DNA from: an uncultured Clostridia bacterium
GTDB lineage: Bacteria > Bacillota > Clostridia > Oscillospirales > Oscillospiraceae
Length of the DNA stretch: 38,466 nucleotides
Assembly: GCA_947165825.1 (NCBI GenBank)
Contig: CAMVBX010000006.1
Span: 1 to 38,466 of the forward strand
Direction of reading: 5' to 3'
Part shown: positions 14,626-25,422 of the stretch, one piece after another
Position numbering within the stretch: the first letter of the stretch is position 1
Layout: the number at the start of each line of letters is the position of its first letter
The notes under the pieces: generated by a model
Told to the model about the DNA's origin: nothing
Seen by the model: the letters and a program-made list of their open reading frames with translations, nothing else
Databases searched by the model: none
Translations under genes and position numbers: made by a program

Positions 14626-14748
14626 TACCCCCTTCCGGCCGGGGACCGGCCGATTCCTTAATCTGAATACTACATACATCATATCATAGCATAACTGCCG
14701 AAAAAATACCACGCCTCTTTGACCGCCGGGTGAATTTTTTCCCGCCCC

Positions 14749-14777
14749 TTGCAGAAGTGGGCCGGTATCTGTATAAT
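14749..14777 (+). promoter_or_regulatory. Promoter of the GH25 gene, very close to the start codon
   Basis: TTGCAG (14749-14754) and a consensus TATAAT (14772-14777) are 17 bases apart. The ATG is at 14784, about where transcription should start, so the mRNA may be leaderless; there is no Shine-Dalgarno sequence in the gap. Confidence 0.7.
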
Positions 14778-14783
14778 CAGGGC

Positions 14784-16655
14784 ATGAATAAGTTGAGAAA
14801 TGCGTTTGCCCTGCTGATCCTGGGCCTCCTGTGCGTGCTTGCCCTCCGGGCCTCCGGGCCCTGGTCCCCCCGTCCCCGACTCTGGCTGGGGGGCGAGGAG
14901 ATCACCCAGGGGGGAGTATACTCCTTTGGAGAGGGCACGGCGGAGTATGATCCGGAAAGCGGGACCCTCACCCTGCGCGGCGCGGTGGTGGAGGGAGAAT
15001 TTCGGGGCGCCGCATTGTATGCCGAGGGAGATCTTCTCATCCGGCTGGAGGGGGAGAACCTGCTGAAGGGTTACCGCCGCGGAGCCACGGTCCTGGGAGA
15101 CCTGACCCTGGTGGGGGAGGGGAGGATCACCTTCACCGGTCATCGCTGCGGCGCGGCGGTTCGGGGCTGCCTCACCCTCTTTGATCGGCCCATGCTCACG
15201 CTGGTGTCGGATCGGGACACGCCCCTTCTCTGGGGCAAGGTCCATGCCGCCCCCAACGTGGTGCAGGTCCGGGAGAAGGGAAGCTATCAGGCTTTCCCGC
15301 CCTGCTGGGTGACGATACAGGACGGGCGGCATGACGCCGCCAGCCACCCCCTGCCGGAGGATGGGGCGGAGTATCCCACCTTCCTCCTGCCCATGGGCAG
15401 CGCCCTGCCCGTGCCGGAGGAGCCGGAACGGGAGGGATATTGGTTCGGCGGCTGGTATACCGACCCGGACCTGACGGAGGAATATGATTTTGACAGTCCC
15501 GTGACGAAGGACATCACCCTGTACCTCCGGTGGATCCAGATCGTGACCGTCCATTTCGATACCTGGGGCGGTACGCCGGTACCGGATATCCAGGTGGCCT
15601 GGGGAGATCCCTGTCCCGAACCGGAGGCGACCGAGCGGCAGTACTGGAATTTCGTGGGCTGGTATACGGACCGGGATCTGGAAACGCCCTACGACTTCGA
15701 CCTGGCCGTTGCCTATGAGCGCACCGTGTATGCCAAATGGGAGCGGCAGGCAGAGGCCGTGGGCCGCGGTCTGGACGTGGCCCGATACCAGGGAGAGATC
15801 GATTGGGAGACCGTGGCGAAGACCCAGGACTTCGTCTTTATCCGCCTGGGCTTCCGGGGCTACGGCGCCGAGGGTACGCTGAACCTGGACGACAATTTCA
15901 CGGTCAATATGGAAGCGGCGCTGAAGGCGGGGCTGGACGTGGGGGTATACTTCTTCTCCCAGGCTGCCAGCGAAGCGGAGGCTCTGGAGGAGGCGGATTT
16001 CGTCCTGGAGGCGTTGGAGCCCTACAGCCTTACCCTTCCGGTGATCCTGGACTATGAGCTTGCCACCACGGCGGACGGGAGTATGATCGGACGGCTGTAC
16101 GAAGCGAATCTTTCCGGGGAGGAATACGGAAGGATCTGTGCGGCCTTCTGCCTGGCTGTGGAAGACGCAGGCTACACCGCCGGGGTATATGCGGGCAGGA
16201 GCATGCTGGAGGAAGGCGTGGCCCAGGCCCTGGAGGAGGCGGGCGGCTTCCCCGTCTGGCTTGCCAACTGGACGGTGCAGACCCGGTATAACGGGGATTT
16301 TGCCTATTGGCAGTATACCGGCAGCGGCAGCGCGGCGGGGATCACCGGCGCGGTGGATCAGGATATCCGGTACATCGTCCGGCCTGAACAGGTGACGGGA
16401 CTCACGGCGGAAAAACGCGGCTTGGGCTGCTTCCTGCACTGGGATAAGGTTCCCGGCGCCAGAGGCTATATCATTCTGCGCAGTGAACAGGAGGGCGGCG
16501 GATACGCGGAGGTGGCCCGGGTGACCGGGGCCGGCGCCCTGAACTGGACCGACCGGCGGACCTTCACCGGATACCGGTACATCGTCTGCGCATACATATC
16601 CCAGGGCAGCACAGAATACCGTGGGCCCATGTCTGAGCCCGCGCAGATCCCGTAA
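14784..16655 (+). CDS. Secreted GH25 lysozyme with InlB-type repeats and Fn3-like tail
   Basis: The 623-residue protein is modular. It has a signal or anchor helix (5-23), and a repetitive beta-rich region (30-160, TLTLRGAVVEG, AALYAEGDLLIRLEGENLL) resembling carbohydrate-binding beta-helical modules. Two InlB/Listeria-Bacteroides repeats follow (about 210-255 and 256-325, FGGWYTDPDLTEEYDF and FVGWYTDRDLETPYDF). The glycoside hydrolase family 25 domain (about 328-530) has GLDVARYQGEIDW (Asp331) and VILDYE (Asp423, Glu425) as catalytic residues. A final fibronectin-III-like domain begins at TGLTAEKRG. GH25 enzymes cut the glycan strand of peptidoglycan; the other modules suggest wall attachment. 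The gene shares a short 19-base gap with hflK downstream. The start is discussed under its promoter. Confidence 0.9.
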   Translation: MNKLRNAFALLILGLLCVLALRASGPWSPRPRLWLGGEEITQGGVYSFGEGTAEYDPESGTLTLRGAVVEGEFRGAALYAEGDLLIRLEGENLLKGYRRGATVLGDLTLVGEGRITFTGHRCGAAVRGCLTLFDRPMLTLVSDRDTPLLWGKVHAAPNVVQVREKGSYQAFPPCWVTIQDGRHDAASHPLPEDGAEYPTFLLPMGSALPVPEEPEREGYWFGGWYTDPDLTEEYDFDSPVTKDITLYLRWIQIVTVHFDTWGGTPVPDIQVAWGDPCPEPEATERQYWNFVGWYTDRDLETPYDFDLAVAYERTVYAKWERQAEAVGRGLDVARYQGEIDWETVAKTQDFVFIRLGFRGYGAEGTLNLDDNFTVNMEAALKAGLDVGVYFFSQAASEAEALEEADFVLEALEPYSLTLPVILDYELATTADGSMIGRLYEANLSGEEYGRICAAFCLAVEDAGYTAGVYAGRSMLEEGVAQALEEAGGFPVWLANWTVQTRYNGDFAYWQYTGSGSAAGITGAVDQDIRYIVRPEQVTGLTAEKRGLGCFLHWDKVPGARGYIILRSEQEGGGYAEVARVTGAGALNWTDRRTFTGYRYIVCAYISQGSTEYRGPMSEPAQIP

Positions 16656-20035: not shown

Positions 20036-20198
20036 CTCAGTCATCCGCCTTGCGTGAGACGGCGGATGCCAGCTCCCCTTTCAGGGGAGCCAGCCGCAGC
20101 AGCGGGATGGTGGCTTGCCTCCCCTGAAAGGGGCTGCGAAGCAGGGGCGCGGTAGTGAATGACGTGCCTGGGGCACGTCAGAGCCGCACTTGACTGAG
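20036..20198. repeat. MITE-like palindromic element
   Basis: The stretch is bounded by an inverted repeat CTCAGTCA (20036-20043) and TGACTGAG (20191-20198). It contains two related palindromes, CTCCCCTTTCAGGGGAG and CCTCCCCTGAAAGGGG, and a GACGTGCC/GGCACGTC hairpin. It codes for nothing. A shorter relative with similar ends lies at 22839-22983. The rest of 19945-20283 holds only a weak GCGAA/TTCGC hairpin with T6 (20251-20272). Confidence 0.55.
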
Positions 20199-20283
20199 CC
20201 GCAGCGAGACGGGGACCGCGAGGCGGTGGAGAGGTTTATTTTGTCTGCAAGCGAACTTTATTCGCCTTTTTTGCAAAAACCTC

Positions 20284-20314
20284 TTGACATTGACGCGGCG
20301 TCAAATTGTAGGGT
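20284..20314 (+). promoter_or_regulatory. MerR-type promoter, copy 1
   Basis: TTGACA (20284-20289) and TAGGGT (20309-20314) are 19 bases apart. The spacer carries a perfect dyad, TTGACG-CGG-CGTCAA (20290-20304). An over-long spacer with a central dyad is the hallmark of promoters activated by MerR-family proteins. The 42 bases 20283-20324 are identical to 23020-23061. No merR gene lies in the window. Confidence 0.65.
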
Positions 20315-20347
20315 GGAGGCAGAATACCGGAATGGGAGGCGAAGCTC

Positions 20348-22752
20348 ATGAAAAAGGCCCTGTGTTTTGCGCTGCTCCTGACCCTGCTCCTCTCTGCCTG
20401 CGGACGGACGCCGGCACAGCCGACGGAGCCTGCCGGGACACCGGCACCGACGACAGCCCCGGAGTCCACCCCGACGCTCGCCCCGGAGCCGACTGCGGCC
20501 CCGACGACAGCCCCGAAGCCCACCCCGGAGCCGGAAGCCGCCCCGGAGCCGGAAGCCGCCCCGGAGCCGGAACCCCAGGATCCCCTGGAGCGGGCCCTGC
20601 GTTTCCTCCGGGCCCAGGACGGAGACTACGTGTCGAGGCATATAAACACGTACCTGGAGCTCTACCGCATGATGCATCCCGGGGCAAACGTCCTTGCCAC
20701 CGGCTGGACCCACGACGCCCGGCACATGCAGCTGGACATGATGGGTCTGGACGTCCAGGCCTTCCTGGATGCGGGGTACTTCCCGGACCTGGTGACGGTC
20801 AGTTCCAAGGGTTATGCCAATGAATTCGTCCCTCTGGCCGAGCCCATCCCCCGGGAGCCGGAGTGGGAACGGGTCTCCGAACAGGGCGTGCGGGTCACCA
20901 TGGACCGGGCGGACTGGTCGGTGGGGGCGGAATACGTGCGCTTCACCATGCGCAACGAGGGGGAGGAGCCCTATCTGTACGGGGCGGACGTGGAGCTGCA
21001 GAAGTATGTGGAGGGCAGCTGGAAGGCCCTCCGGCATTCGGGTGTGATCCTCGCCATTGGTTATTCCTTGAACCCGGGGAATGAGCGCAGCCTGACCCCG
21101 CCCATGGTCTACTTCCCCGCCCTGGGGGAGGGCCTGTACCGGGTGGGCTTCATCCGGGATGGGGTCTGGGCGGAATTCGCCGTCCGGGCCGACGCGGAAC
21201 CGGTGGACTTGAGCGATATCGGGCGCGTCAGTTGGCCGGAGGCGGCCCTGCTGCTGGCGGGGCTGCCGGAAACCGTGGAAAGCGATCTGCGTGACACCCG
21301 CTGGCCCGCCATGAGCAGCTTTTCCTGGGAACTGTGGGAGGAACGGCGATTCACCGATGAAGAACTTGCCGCTCTCCTCCTGGGGGAGAGGGCGGAGTAT
21401 GACGCCTCGGCGGAGGTCTACCGCCTGGGGAATGGAACCCTGGACCTGAAACAGGGGGCGGAGCTGGACCGGGATACCCTGCCGGCAAAGGCCCTGCGTC
21501 TGGTACTGGAAAACACGACGGATTCCCCGGAGAAGGCAGGGTGGAAGAGCCGCCAGCGGACGGCGATGCTCCCGCCTCTGGACAGCCTGTACCCGGAGAT
21601 CACCGTAAACAGTTATGCCCCGGATCCGGACGTGCTCATCAGAGGCTTGAAGCGGTCTTGGAAACGCTGGGGGAGGATGCGGGGGAACTCCGGGATTTCC
21701 GCTTCACTTCTGAGGACCTGCGGGACCTGCGGCTGCTGCTGGTCCCGGTGAGTACGGAAGGGAGTTACCCCAAGGGCTTTCCCCTGTGCTCCCCCGAGGG
21801 AGAGCTGGCGTCTTCGGCGGCCTGGTGCGTTTGCCGGAATACCTACGATACCGATAGCGGCGCCGTGAGCATGGAGTTCCTGGTCCTCCACGCCCGGTAT
21901 ACGGGCTATACCCTGGTGCCGGGAGAGCAGCGTCAGACCTGCTCTCCCCTGGAGCAGGCGGAGAAATTCATCCCCCTTTTGCAGGAGGAGGGGATCAGGC
22001 TGCGGAGCTTCGACTATGTGCTCATCCCCGACCTCCATGATCCGGAGGGGAAAACCCTGCATCCCGCCTACCGCCTCCTGGCGGAGACGGCGTCGGGGGA
22101 GGAGCGGTGCTTCGTGGTGAGCGCCGTGAGCAGAGGGGCGAGCGCCTACGATCTCCCCCGGCGGGCTTACCTGGAGGAGCTCATGAACGCCCATACGGTC
22201 ATGGATATCTTTGAGACCTGCTGGGCGCAGTACCCGGAGATGGACGTGTGGCCGGTGAGCTTCGGCATCCGGGCGTTGGAGGACGGAAGGGAAGCCCTGG
22301 TGATCGACTGCGACGGAGTGGACTGTCCCGCCCTGGAGGCCTCCGGGCTCCTGCCGGAGGGGGTGGCGCTGAACTATCCGGAGGAGAAGTTCAACCAAAA
22401 GGAAGCCCACCCCTGCCCCTGGGAGCCGGAGTGGGAGAAAAGCTGGGACGGGGGGACCGTCACCCTCACCATGGCCCGGGCGGAATACCCCCTATACCCC
22501 GATCACGTGGAACTGACGGTGCGCTGCGAGAGGTCATTCAACCGAGACTGGGACCGCTTTGAAAAGTACGCGGAGGGAGAGTGGCACAACGTGCGCAGCT
22601 CAATGGCCGGCACCCTGGGCCTGCGCTACGTGGAGTCCGGGGAGACGGTGCTGCAGGTGAGGACCAACGCCAAGCTGGGACCGGGCCTCTACCGCCTGTA
22701 CCTCACCAAGGAATACTGGGTGGAGTTCAAGGTCTCTGAAATGGAAGAGTAA
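20348..22752 (+). pseudogene. Large lipoprotein with duplicated module, broken by one frameshift
   Basis: The reading frame from ATG 20348 (GGGAGG upstream) begins MKKALCFALLLTLLLSACG, a lipoprotein signal with Cys at the lipobox. A Pro/Thr/Glu-rich spacer follows (EPTAAPTTAPKPTPEPE). At about 21638-21645 the frame shifts: before it reads PDPDVLI, after it RLEAVLETLGEDAG, exactly as in the paralog at 23086, and one missing base explains the switch. The second half runs to TAA at 22752. Restored, it would be about 801 residues. Both halves hold a related unit: an alpha/beta segment and an Ig-like (Big_14-like) domain ending LGEGLYRVGF and LGPGLYRLYL. It could be a fresh pseudogene or a sequencing error. 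No function is known. Confidence 0.8.
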
Positions 22753-22838
22753 AACCCGGAGAACGGCGAACGCTGTCCTCCGTGGGTGTTGACAAACCCG
22801 GATTTGCCATTGTTATGACAGAGAGATCGAAGCAATCG

Positions 22839-22983
22839 CCCCTCATCCGTCACGGCGCTTCCGTGAGACGCACCGCACCACCTTCCCACAGGTGAAGGCA
22901 GTCGCTGCGGCGGGACGGGGGTAACGATTTGCAACCTTGGCTTCCCTTGGGGGAAGCTGTCGCCGCAGGCGACTGATGAGGGG
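22839..22983. repeat. MITE-like palindromic element, 145 bp
   Basis: Terminal inverted repeats CCCCTCATCCGTC (22839-22851) and GACTGATGAGGGG (22971-22983) match at 12 of 13 positions. Internal hairpins include GGCTTCCC with GGGGAAGC near 22940-22956. There is no coding capacity. It lies just ahead of the second lipoprotein promoter. A possible promoter-like TTGACA starts at 22789, but nothing supports its use. Confidence 0.65.
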
Positions 22984-23020
22984 CATTTTGCGGATATTCT
23001 GACTTTTTTGCCAAAACCCC

Positions 23021-23051
23021 TTGACATTGACGCGGCGTCAAATTGTAGGGT
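23021..23051 (+). promoter_or_regulatory. MerR-type promoter, copy 2
   Basis: TTGACA (23021-23026) and TAGGGT (23046-23051) are 19 bases apart with the dyad TTGACG-CGG-CGTCAA at 23027-23041. It is identical to copy 1 at 20284-20314 and drives the intact lipoprotein gene. Confidence 0.65.
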
Positions 23052-23085
23052 GGAGGCAGAAAACGAAATAACGGAGGTGCTGAAC

Positions 23086-25422
23086 ATGAAAAAGGCCCTG
23101 TGTTATGTCCTGGCTCTGGCACTGGTCCTGGGGTTTTCCGCCTGCGGCGGAAGGCCGGATCCGGTCCCATCGCCGGAGAGCACGCCGACGCCCGCCCCGG
23201 AACCGACTGCGGCCCCGACGCCGGAGCCGACGCCCGCCCCGGAACCGGAGCCAGGCCAGGACCCCCTGGAGCGGGCCCTGGCCTGGCTCCGGGCGCAGAA
23301 GGACTGGAACTTTGTCGGCGCCCATCTGGGCACCTATCAGGAGCTCTATGAACTGACCCATCCCGGGGCGGACATCCAGATCCTGGGCGGCGGAATCGGC
23401 GCGAAGGAGGTATCCATAGAGGTGGCCGGGACGGATGCCCAGGCCTTTGCCGAAGCGGGATACTTCTCGGACCGGTTCACGATCCACCCGAAGAAAAACG
23501 GCGATCCCTGTTTTCCTCAGGATCTGCCCATCCCCCGGGAGCCGGAGAGCGACCACATTTCGGACCGGGGCCTGCGCATCACCATGGATCGGGCGGTGTG
23601 GCCTGTGGGGACGGATTACCTGCGCTTTACGGTAGAGAAGGAGCCAGGGGAAAACCTGGAATTCTGCCTGGAGAAGTATGCGGACGGGACATGGATACGG
23701 TATCTTTGGCCCGGCGCGAGCATAGGGAACGATCTTGGCCTGCTGCGGCGCGCCGGTACGTATTATATGAATACGCAGCTTTTACCCCGGCTGGGGGAGG
23801 GACTGTACCGCATCTTCGTTTCCCCGGAGGGGGACTGGGCGGAATTCGTCGTCCGCGCCGATGCGGAGCCCCTGGCCCTGGAACCCCTGGTCCGTCGAAG
23901 CTGGCCGGAGGCGGCCCTGCTCCTGGCGGGACTGCCGGAGCATGTGGAGACCGACCTGCGGGGCACCGTCTGGCCTGCCATGAGCCATACCTGGCAGGTG
24001 ATGGAGGATCAGAGCCTGACGGATGAAGCATTGGCGGAGCTGCTGCTGGGGACGGGGGCGGAGGTCGACCCCTCCGGGGAGGTCTGGCGCGCCGGGGAAC
24101 TGACCCTCAGCACCGGGGAAGAGATCCGGGTGGAAGACGATTCCCTGCTTACCCGGGCCCTCCGGCTGACGCTTCCCCTGCGGGACCCGGAGACCCGGGA
24201 TCCCCGGGAGCTTCCCTCCCTGGAGGAGGCGGGATGGACGTACGTGGGGATCGACTCCAACGTATACGGTCTTTCCCGTCTGTTCCCCCGGACGGGCTTC
24301 CGGTGCTATTCCCCGGATATCGGCGTGCTGAACGCCAGGCTGGAGGCAGCCCTGGAGACCCTTGGGCCGGAGGATCCCCGGCATGCAGAGCTGGCAGACT
24401 TCCGCTTCACGCAGGAGGATGCAAAGAAACTCTTCCTGGCTCTGCTCCCCATCCAGACGAGGGCAGCGGAATATATGCTTACAGAGATTTCCCTGGTTTC
24501 CCCCTGGGGTGCAATGGACGAAGCTGCAGCCTGGTGCGTTTACCGGAAAGACAAGGGAATTTTGCTCCTGGAGGCCAGGTATCCGGATCACCGCCTGGAG
24601 CCGGAGAACGCCTGGGAGACGCTCAGCCCGGAGGAACAGATCGAGAAATTCCTCCCCCTGATGGAGGGGGAGGAGGAAGGACTGCGTCTCACCCGGATGG
24701 ACTATGTGCTCATCCCCGGAAATGAGGAGGGGATATTCCAGCCCGCCTGGCGCCTCCTGGCGGAGACGGCCTCCGGGGAGGTGCGGACCTGGGTGGCGAG
24801 CACCCGGAACGATCGGCAGAGCGCCTACGACCTGCAGCGGCGGGCTTATCTGCTGGAGCTCCAGAAGCCCAACGGGATCCGGCACATTTTCCAAAGCTTC
24901 CGGGAGGAGTATCCGGACATGGACGTGTGGGAGGACAGCTGGGGGATCGATCTGCTGGAGGACGGCAGGGACTACCTGGTGGTGCTGTGCCATGGAGCGG
25001 ACATCCCGGCCCTGGAGGCCTCCGGCTTCCTGCCGGATGGAGTGGTGTTGGATTGGATCGAAAGCCCCTTCAACCAAAAGGAATCCCACCCCTGCCCCCA
25101 TGAGCCGGAGTGGGAAAAGGACTGGGGGACCGTTCGTCTTGCCATGGGTCAGGCGGAGTATCCTCCGTATCCCGGATCTGTGGAGCTGACAGTGGGCTTG
25201 GAAAAAACCTTCCGGCTGCAACCGCTCGTCTGCAAAAAGTACATGGACGGGGAATGGAGAACCGTATGCCGGGTGGATCTCGACCAGCCGCTTCGCGAGG
25301 AGGGGGAAACGACCCTGCAGGCAGCCCCTTTAGCCAGGCTGGGGCCGGGCCTTTACCGCCTGTATCTCAACGACAAGTTCTGGGTGGAATTCAAGATAAC
25401 CGATCGTACAGCTGAAAACTAG
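23086..25422 (+). CDS. Large lipoprotein with duplicated Ig-like module
   Basis: The 778-residue protein starts MKKALCYVLALALVLGFSAC, a lipoprotein signal with lipobox FSAC (Cys20), so it should be anchored outside the membrane. A Pro/Glu-rich spacer (PEPTAAPTPEPTPAPEPE) follows. The rest shows an internal duplication. Unit one (about 75-270) has an alpha/beta part (YQELYELTHPGADIQ) and an Ig-like domain from EPESDHISDRG to LGEGLYRIFV; unit two (about 590-778) has the same order (IFQSFREEYPDMDVW, EPEWEKDWGTVRL, LGPGLYRLYL). A middle region contains DFRFTQEDAKKLF. The Ig domains resemble Big_14. The role is unknown. ATG 23086 has ACGGAGGTG just upstream. The first paralog at 20348 is frameshifted. 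Confidence 0.85.
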   Translation: MKKALCYVLALALVLGFSACGGRPDPVPSPESTPTPAPEPTAAPTPEPTPAPEPEPGQDPLERALAWLRAQKDWNFVGAHLGTYQELYELTHPGADIQILGGGIGAKEVSIEVAGTDAQAFAEAGYFSDRFTIHPKKNGDPCFPQDLPIPREPESDHISDRGLRITMDRAVWPVGTDYLRFTVEKEPGENLEFCLEKYADGTWIRYLWPGASIGNDLGLLRRAGTYYMNTQLLPRLGEGLYRIFVSPEGDWAEFVVRADAEPLALEPLVRRSWPEAALLLAGLPEHVETDLRGTVWPAMSHTWQVMEDQSLTDEALAELLLGTGAEVDPSGEVWRAGELTLSTGEEIRVEDDSLLTRALRLTLPLRDPETRDPRELPSLEEAGWTYVGIDSNVYGLSRLFPRTGFRCYSPDIGVLNARLEAALETLGPEDPRHAELADFRFTQEDAKKLFLALLPIQTRAAEYMLTEISLVSPWGAMDEAAAWCVYRKDKGILLLEARYPDHRLEPENAWETLSPEEQIEKFLPLMEGEEEGLRLTRMDYVLIPGNEEGIFQPAWRLLAETASGEVRTWVASTRNDRQSAYDLQRRAYLLELQKPNGIRHIFQSFREEYPDMDVWEDSWGIDLLEDGRDYLVVLCHGADIPALEASGFLPDGVVLDWIESPFNQKESHPCPHEPEWEKDWGTVRLAMGQAEYPPYPGSVELTVGLEKTFRLQPLVCKKYMDGEWRTVCRVDLDQPLREEGETTLQAAPLARLGPGLYRLYLNDKFWVEFKITDRTAEN

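Follow-up and report, generated by a model that had tools for sequence, protein, structure and literature searches.

The window analyzed here is a 38,466-nt stretch (contig C6) of a rumen Oscillospiraceae genome (G000; 2.2 Mb, 73% complete). It contains two tandem lipoprotein genes, each preceded by a promoter of the same sequence, and the relevant features are as follows.

20267 to 20279, + strand: A/T tract TTTTTTGCAAAAA, just 5' of the -35 box of promoter 1 (from position counts over 35 sites)
20284 to 20314, + strand: putative MerR-type promoter 1, with -35 box TTGACA (20284 to 20289), 19-bp spacer, and -10 box TAGGGT (20309 to 20314)
20290 to 20304, + strand: dyad TTGACG-CGG-CGTCAA of promoter 1 (TTGACGcggCGTCAA, TTGACGCGGCGTCAA), within the spacer
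20348 to 21751, + strand: N-terminal part of lipoprotein gene 1, encoding a signal peptide, lipobox LSAC, a Pro-rich spacer, and a Big_14 Ig-like domain
21541 to 22752, + strand: open reading frame with the C-terminal part of lipoprotein 1 in a shifted frame, 51% identical to copy 2
23004 to 23016, + strand: A/T tract TTTTTTGCCAAAA, 5' of the -35 box of promoter 2 (from position counts over 35 sites)
23021 to 23051, + strand: putative MerR-type promoter 2, identical to promoter 1, with -35 box (23021 to 23026), dyad (23027 to 23041), and -10 box (23046 to 23051)
23086 to 25422, + strand: lipoprotein gene 2, the intact paralog (778 aa; lipobox FSAC)

A letter-by-letter comparison of positions 20283 to 20324 and 23020 to 23061 found 42 of 42 nt identical, exactly as an earlier sequence-only reading of this DNA had claimed, and in both copies the TTGACA and TAGGGT boxes do lie 19 bp apart with the dyad between them, beginning directly 3' of the -35 box. 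Within the window, the first 32 nt of the 42-mers occur at these two places only (up to three mismatches allowed), and the count of this 32-nt site expected from dinucleotide shuffles was none. The flanking DNA is indeed much less similar, as that reading had also noted (20/40 identical positions upstream and 12/40 downstream in ungapped comparison). The similar block is nevertheless about 62 nt long (95% identity) rather than 42 nt, because the A/T tract upstream of the -35 box is conserved as well. This tract, which is kept in most of the 35 sites described below (position counts), is UP-element-like and may act as such. The intergenic regions 5' of the two promoters each contain palindromic stretches (CTCCCCTTTCAGGGGAG; CTTCCCTTGGGGGAAG) that look like dispersed palindromic repeats, at approximately 20065 to 20130 and 22860 to 22985.

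The two lipoproteins are 45% identical and are thus paralogs, as had been proposed from the sequence. The upstream gene (20348 to 22752) is frameshifted: its frame is broken near 21.64 kb, and its halves match copy 2 at 45% and 51% identity. The break represents either a pseudogene or an assembly error; intact relatives of this gene are present in a congener (G003). Elsewhere in the window, positions 14730 to 16655 encode a glycosyl hydrolase family 25 (lysozyme-like) protein with Listeria-Bacteroides repeats.

Further copies of the dyad with the same spacing, for which a genome-wide search had been suggested, proved to be plentiful. A pattern search identified 14 sites in G000, 12 in G003, and 9 in G005 (all three being metagenome-assembled genomes that are 71 to 76% complete), giving a total of 35 in three species; there were no sites in the four other congeners (of six), and the reversed pattern, used as a control, gave none. 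The perfect dyad TTGACGnnnCGTCAA is present in 13, 9, and 7 copies in G000, G003, and G005, respectively, every one of them inside such a promoter; it occurs nowhere else in these genomes and is absent from the four other congeners. All 35 sites have a 19-bp spacer and are oriented toward an exported-protein gene, with 15 to 46 nt between the end of the -10 box and the start codon (with start codons called by a script and by visual inspection). Approximately 25 of the 35 targets are lipoproteins (23 by a strict lipobox pattern, with a few added by reading the N termini by eye, namely, those with WGC or HGC boxes and the L011 gene), and the remainder are membrane anchored at the N terminus. Several target proteins carry the Ig-like domain Big_14, and the families are otherwise mostly unrelated.

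The 42-mer pair is therefore part of a clade-specific regulon with at least 14 promoters in G000 and 35 in the three species, all of them before exported-protein genes. The earlier description of two promoters driving paralogous genes holds insofar as both promoters are real; it understated the extent of a regulon whose exported proteins are mostly unrelated. The 31-bp site keeps 87 to 100% identity between homologous genes, even where the proteins are only about 40 to 60% identical, while the 30 to 90 nt upstream of the site are often near the random baseline (some recently diverged pairs keep similar flanks). Because of this difference, the conservation of the site looks like purifying selection on a promoter rather than like a repeat. 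The regulon provides a common regulatory label for many uncharacterized lipoproteins of rumen bacteria.

According to a review, MerR promoters typically have a spacer of 19 to 20 bp that contains a palindrome (PMC9909328). Outside the clade, 66 of 401 genomes of the family hold this type of site, each with one or two copies. Of 46 distinct outside sites examined (48 rows, in which one pair is listed twice), 41 lie directly upstream of a MerR-family gene, which usually follows 19 to 35 nt past the -10 box. The sites thus combine a 19-bp spacer, a palindrome within it, and a tie to MerR genes elsewhere. Since 41 of the 46 outside sites precede a MerR gene, the architecture is that of a local MerR autoregulatory promoter in the family, which the regulon clade has before exported-protein genes. 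The 42-mers are very probably sigma-70-type promoters whose overlong 19-bp spacer carries a putative MerR-family operator. The reading as MerR-activated promoters, first put forward from the two copies in the window, is supported by their recurrence before exported-protein genes and by the association with MerR genes elsewhere.

Profile searches of G000 with PF13411 and PF00376 identified three full MerR genes and one weak, partial match. None was found on the window contig, in agreement with the earlier statement that the regulator is not in the window. A regulator gene with the operator in its own promoter is common in the MerR class and is not obligatory. The sequence-only reading had pointed to a merR-family gene whose promoter contains a matching operator as the gene to look for; no merR gene found in G000 has the dyad there, so autoregulation does not identify the regulator, and this route was rejected. 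The MerR gene on contig C9 has operator TTGACTATCCCCTTGGGGCATACCTTACAAT in its own promoter, of a type that is conserved in the congeners, and the one on contig C60 has a divergent MerR-type promoter, TTGACTGTATAGTAACAATACACTATACAAT, which faces a helix-turn-helix (HTH) gene and is conserved in G003 and G005. MerR genes of the L015 type are preceded by a promoter with a CCC(C)nnGGG(G) operator, which occurs once per regulon genome; those of the L017 type have a divergent GTATAGT operator that is conserved in all three species. Both types were disfavored as regulators, since each has a different operator, neither of which resembles TTGACG. We also considered a CCCC-type operator as the basis of a parallel lipoprotein regulon in the congeners that lack the sites; this was rejected, as each genome has only one to four matches of weak to good quality, most of them preceding MerR genes.

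The remaining candidate is a protein with a predicted membrane-spanning segment, here called TM-MerR.

G000 contig C176, 1622 to 2608 (L016:721-1707), - strand: TM-MerR gene (329 aa), encoding a MerR winged HTH (wHTH), one predicted transmembrane (TM) helix, and a predicted extracytoplasmic domain

TM-MerR matches MerR_1 (PF13411; 6.5e-17; 61.8 bits; curated cutoff, 21.6) and PF00376 (39.1 bits; curated cutoff, 28.2), and its N-terminal half matches CueR both by profile or sequence and by structural model. The wHTH is followed by a predicted long dimerization helix (residues 72 to 103; pLDDT, ~90), and a predicted long helix (residues 138 to 182) that includes a hydrophobic segment (residues 158 to 176) leads through the membrane to a C-terminal domain of approximately 140 residues. 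Past residue ~104, there was no Pfam or NCBIfam match and no known effector domain (metal loop, GyrI-like, or TipAS). Membership in the MerR family rests on the wHTH and does not require a known effector domain. The predicted topology is that of a cytoplasmic DNA-binding domain, a single TM helix, and an extracytoplasmic domain. Confidence in the full-length model is low past residue 186, and the outer domain was assessed from a separate model instead, which predicts an alpha/beta domain (moderate confidence; pLDDT, 76), with no significant fold match in the PDB (best E value, 0.12). No such site lies in the promoter of the TM-MerR gene, and none was found on contig C176.

The outer domain of TM-MerR is 33 to 38% identical to the N-terminal domain (mature part) of lipoproteins encoded on contig C59. 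This domain was found in only 3 of 149 genomes, which are the regulon genomes G000, G003, and G005, and beyond TM-MerR it occurs only in lipoproteins of these three. Domain and promoter were directly shown to occur together only in the C59:8045 lipoprotein and its contig-truncated counterpart in G005. On contig C59 (L087), three adjacent lipoprotein genes carry the sensor-like domain, one being cut by the contig end and one lying directly behind a promoter. Directly 3' of the TM-MerR gene is a lipoprotein-like open reading frame (L088) with an apparent frameshift soon past the lipobox.

The TM-MerR gene itself was found in two of the genomes only (G000 and G005), where it sits between tsf and an alcohol dehydrogenase gene; the orthologs are 84% identical, and the same protein is encoded in JAFZVM010000027.1 (Oscillospiraceae bacterium, water buffalo rumen). 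The gene tsf is expected in every bacterium. The G003 assembly lacks tsf altogether, as it does TM-MerR, so this region is missing from the assembly, and the absence of TM-MerR from G003 is uninformative. G001, G002, and G006 have tsf with no TM-MerR beside it and no promoter sites; G004 lacks tsf too and is likewise uninformative on synteny. The three regulon species are probably one clade, so the co-occurrence is close to a single evolutionary event. Co-occurrence, domain homology, and elimination together point to TM-MerR as the candidate regulator, a role that it probably has.

Other MerR proteins of this family are also membrane associated. L051 and L052 (and also L099 and L103), from the congeners G006, G004, and G001, encode proteins of approximately 650 to 690 aa with an N-terminal MerR domain, two TM segments flanking an extracytoplasmic region, and a long cytoplasmic C terminus without a Pfam match; most of the genes are directly preceded by a MerR promoter of the TTGACTAT... 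type. Within this genus, they represent a second type of MerR with predicted membrane attachment. L047 (G056:C76) contains two tandem genes for membrane-associated MerR proteins with two to three C-terminal TM segments, each gene having the identical promoter TTGACACTTACGTTGCGTAAGAGTGTATAAT; it holds the closest HTH relative of TM-MerR outside the genus.

The alternative that survives best accepts the sites as MerR type and assigns them to a different MerR protein, which would be either missing from the assemblies or one of the soluble L015-type or L017-type proteins. We consider this unlikely. The regulon genomes are only 71 to 76% complete, so another regulator could be missing; a wholly missing one, however, would need to have escaped all three assemblies, and it would give no explanation for the shared outer domain. 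An L017-type MerR is present in all three regulon genomes, with no close relative seen in the other four, a co-occurrence equal to that of TM-MerR, and such sites elsewhere in the family mostly precede genes for soluble, Mta-like MerR proteins. The CCC(C)nnGGG(G) and GTATAGT operators of the two soluble types, in contrast, are unlike TTGACG, and for the L017-type protein this difference in operator is the only reason for which it is disfavored.

Far less probable is that the dyad is the operator of an unrelated dimeric repressor (e.g., a TetR- or GntR-like protein), with no MerR protein involved. Repressors, too, commonly have a palindromic site between the -35 and -10 boxes, but the 19-bp spacer, found in 35 of 35 sites, is poor for ordinary sigma-70 promoters, the dyad is placed as in mer-type promoters, and in other genera, 41 of 46 distinct sites with the same arrangement stand before a MerR gene. 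The idea that the 42 identical base pairs are left over from a recent tandem duplication or belong to a dispersed repeat, with no regulatory meaning, as the tandem arrangement of the paralogs and the other palindromic repeats in both intergenic regions might suggest, has a negligible probability, since the paralogs are only 45% identical with diverged flanks, the 14 copies in G000 precede largely unrelated exported-protein genes in the correct orientation and at the correct distance (a gene context that led us to reject the dispersed-repeat explanation), and the site is conserved across species with distal flanks that have often diverged.

The best explanation as a whole, to which we assign a probability of roughly 70%, is a clade-specific regulon controlled by the membrane-spanning TM-MerR, encoded elsewhere in the genome. 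The wHTH and dimerization helix of TM-MerR would bind the dyad, and the TM helix would connect this DNA-binding part with the extracytoplasmic domain, which has homologs in the N-terminal domains of certain lipoproteins of the genome. With no signal, the membrane-held dimer would sit on the dyad and the promoter would presumably be off, since the -35 and -10 boxes are out of register; a cell envelope signal reaching the outer domain might then cause the dimer to twist the spacer, so that all these promoters would open together. Because the lipoproteins share the sensor domain and at least one of them lies behind the promoter, competition for a common ligand could give rise to feedback. The fuller proposal, that a membrane-spanning MerR controls a dispersed lipoprotein regulon, has an outer domain in common with some of its targets, and responds with them to the same envelope signal in a feedback loop, has about even odds, and we rate this shared-signal feedback below the role of TM-MerR as the regulator. 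If TM-MerR is the regulator, a membrane-spanning MerR over 9 to 14 exported-protein promoters would constitute a one-component route from the cell surface to transcription in gut Clostridia, which raises the mechanistic question of whether activation by spacer twisting can be driven by an extracytoplasmic domain. In textbooks, MerR proteins are soluble and sense metals, drugs, and oxidants inside the cell. A search of the open literature found no paper on a membrane-bound MerR, which is weak evidence, as most subscription papers lie outside such a search; a survey of transmembrane regulators leaves the MerR family unmentioned in its main text, where the sole match is an author name (PMC10269533).

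Classic members of the MerR family each govern a single resistance or stress operon or a few of them. The promoters described here resemble MerR-regulated promoters of the mer, cueR/copA, bmr, and mta type in their 19-bp spacer, near-consensus -35 box, TAnnnT -10 box, and palindrome beside the -35 box (PMC9909328); unlike the classic cases, they serve exported-protein genes, with 9 to 14 uses in each genome, and the regulator gene is apparently not under their control. The N-terminal wHTH and dimerization helix of TM-MerR match those of CueR and Mta by sequence and model, whereas no C-terminal metal loop or drug-binding domain was recognized and a predicted TM helix and extracytoplasmic domain stand in this place. 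Transmembrane transcription regulators such as ToxR, TcpP, and CadC are one-component proteins in which a single TM helix joins a DNA-binding domain in the cytoplasm to an extracytoplasmic sensor (PMC10269533). TM-MerR shares this one-component membrane design in its predicted topology and differs from ToxR and CadC in that its DNA-binding domain is MerR_1 rather than an OmpR/PhoB-type wHTH.
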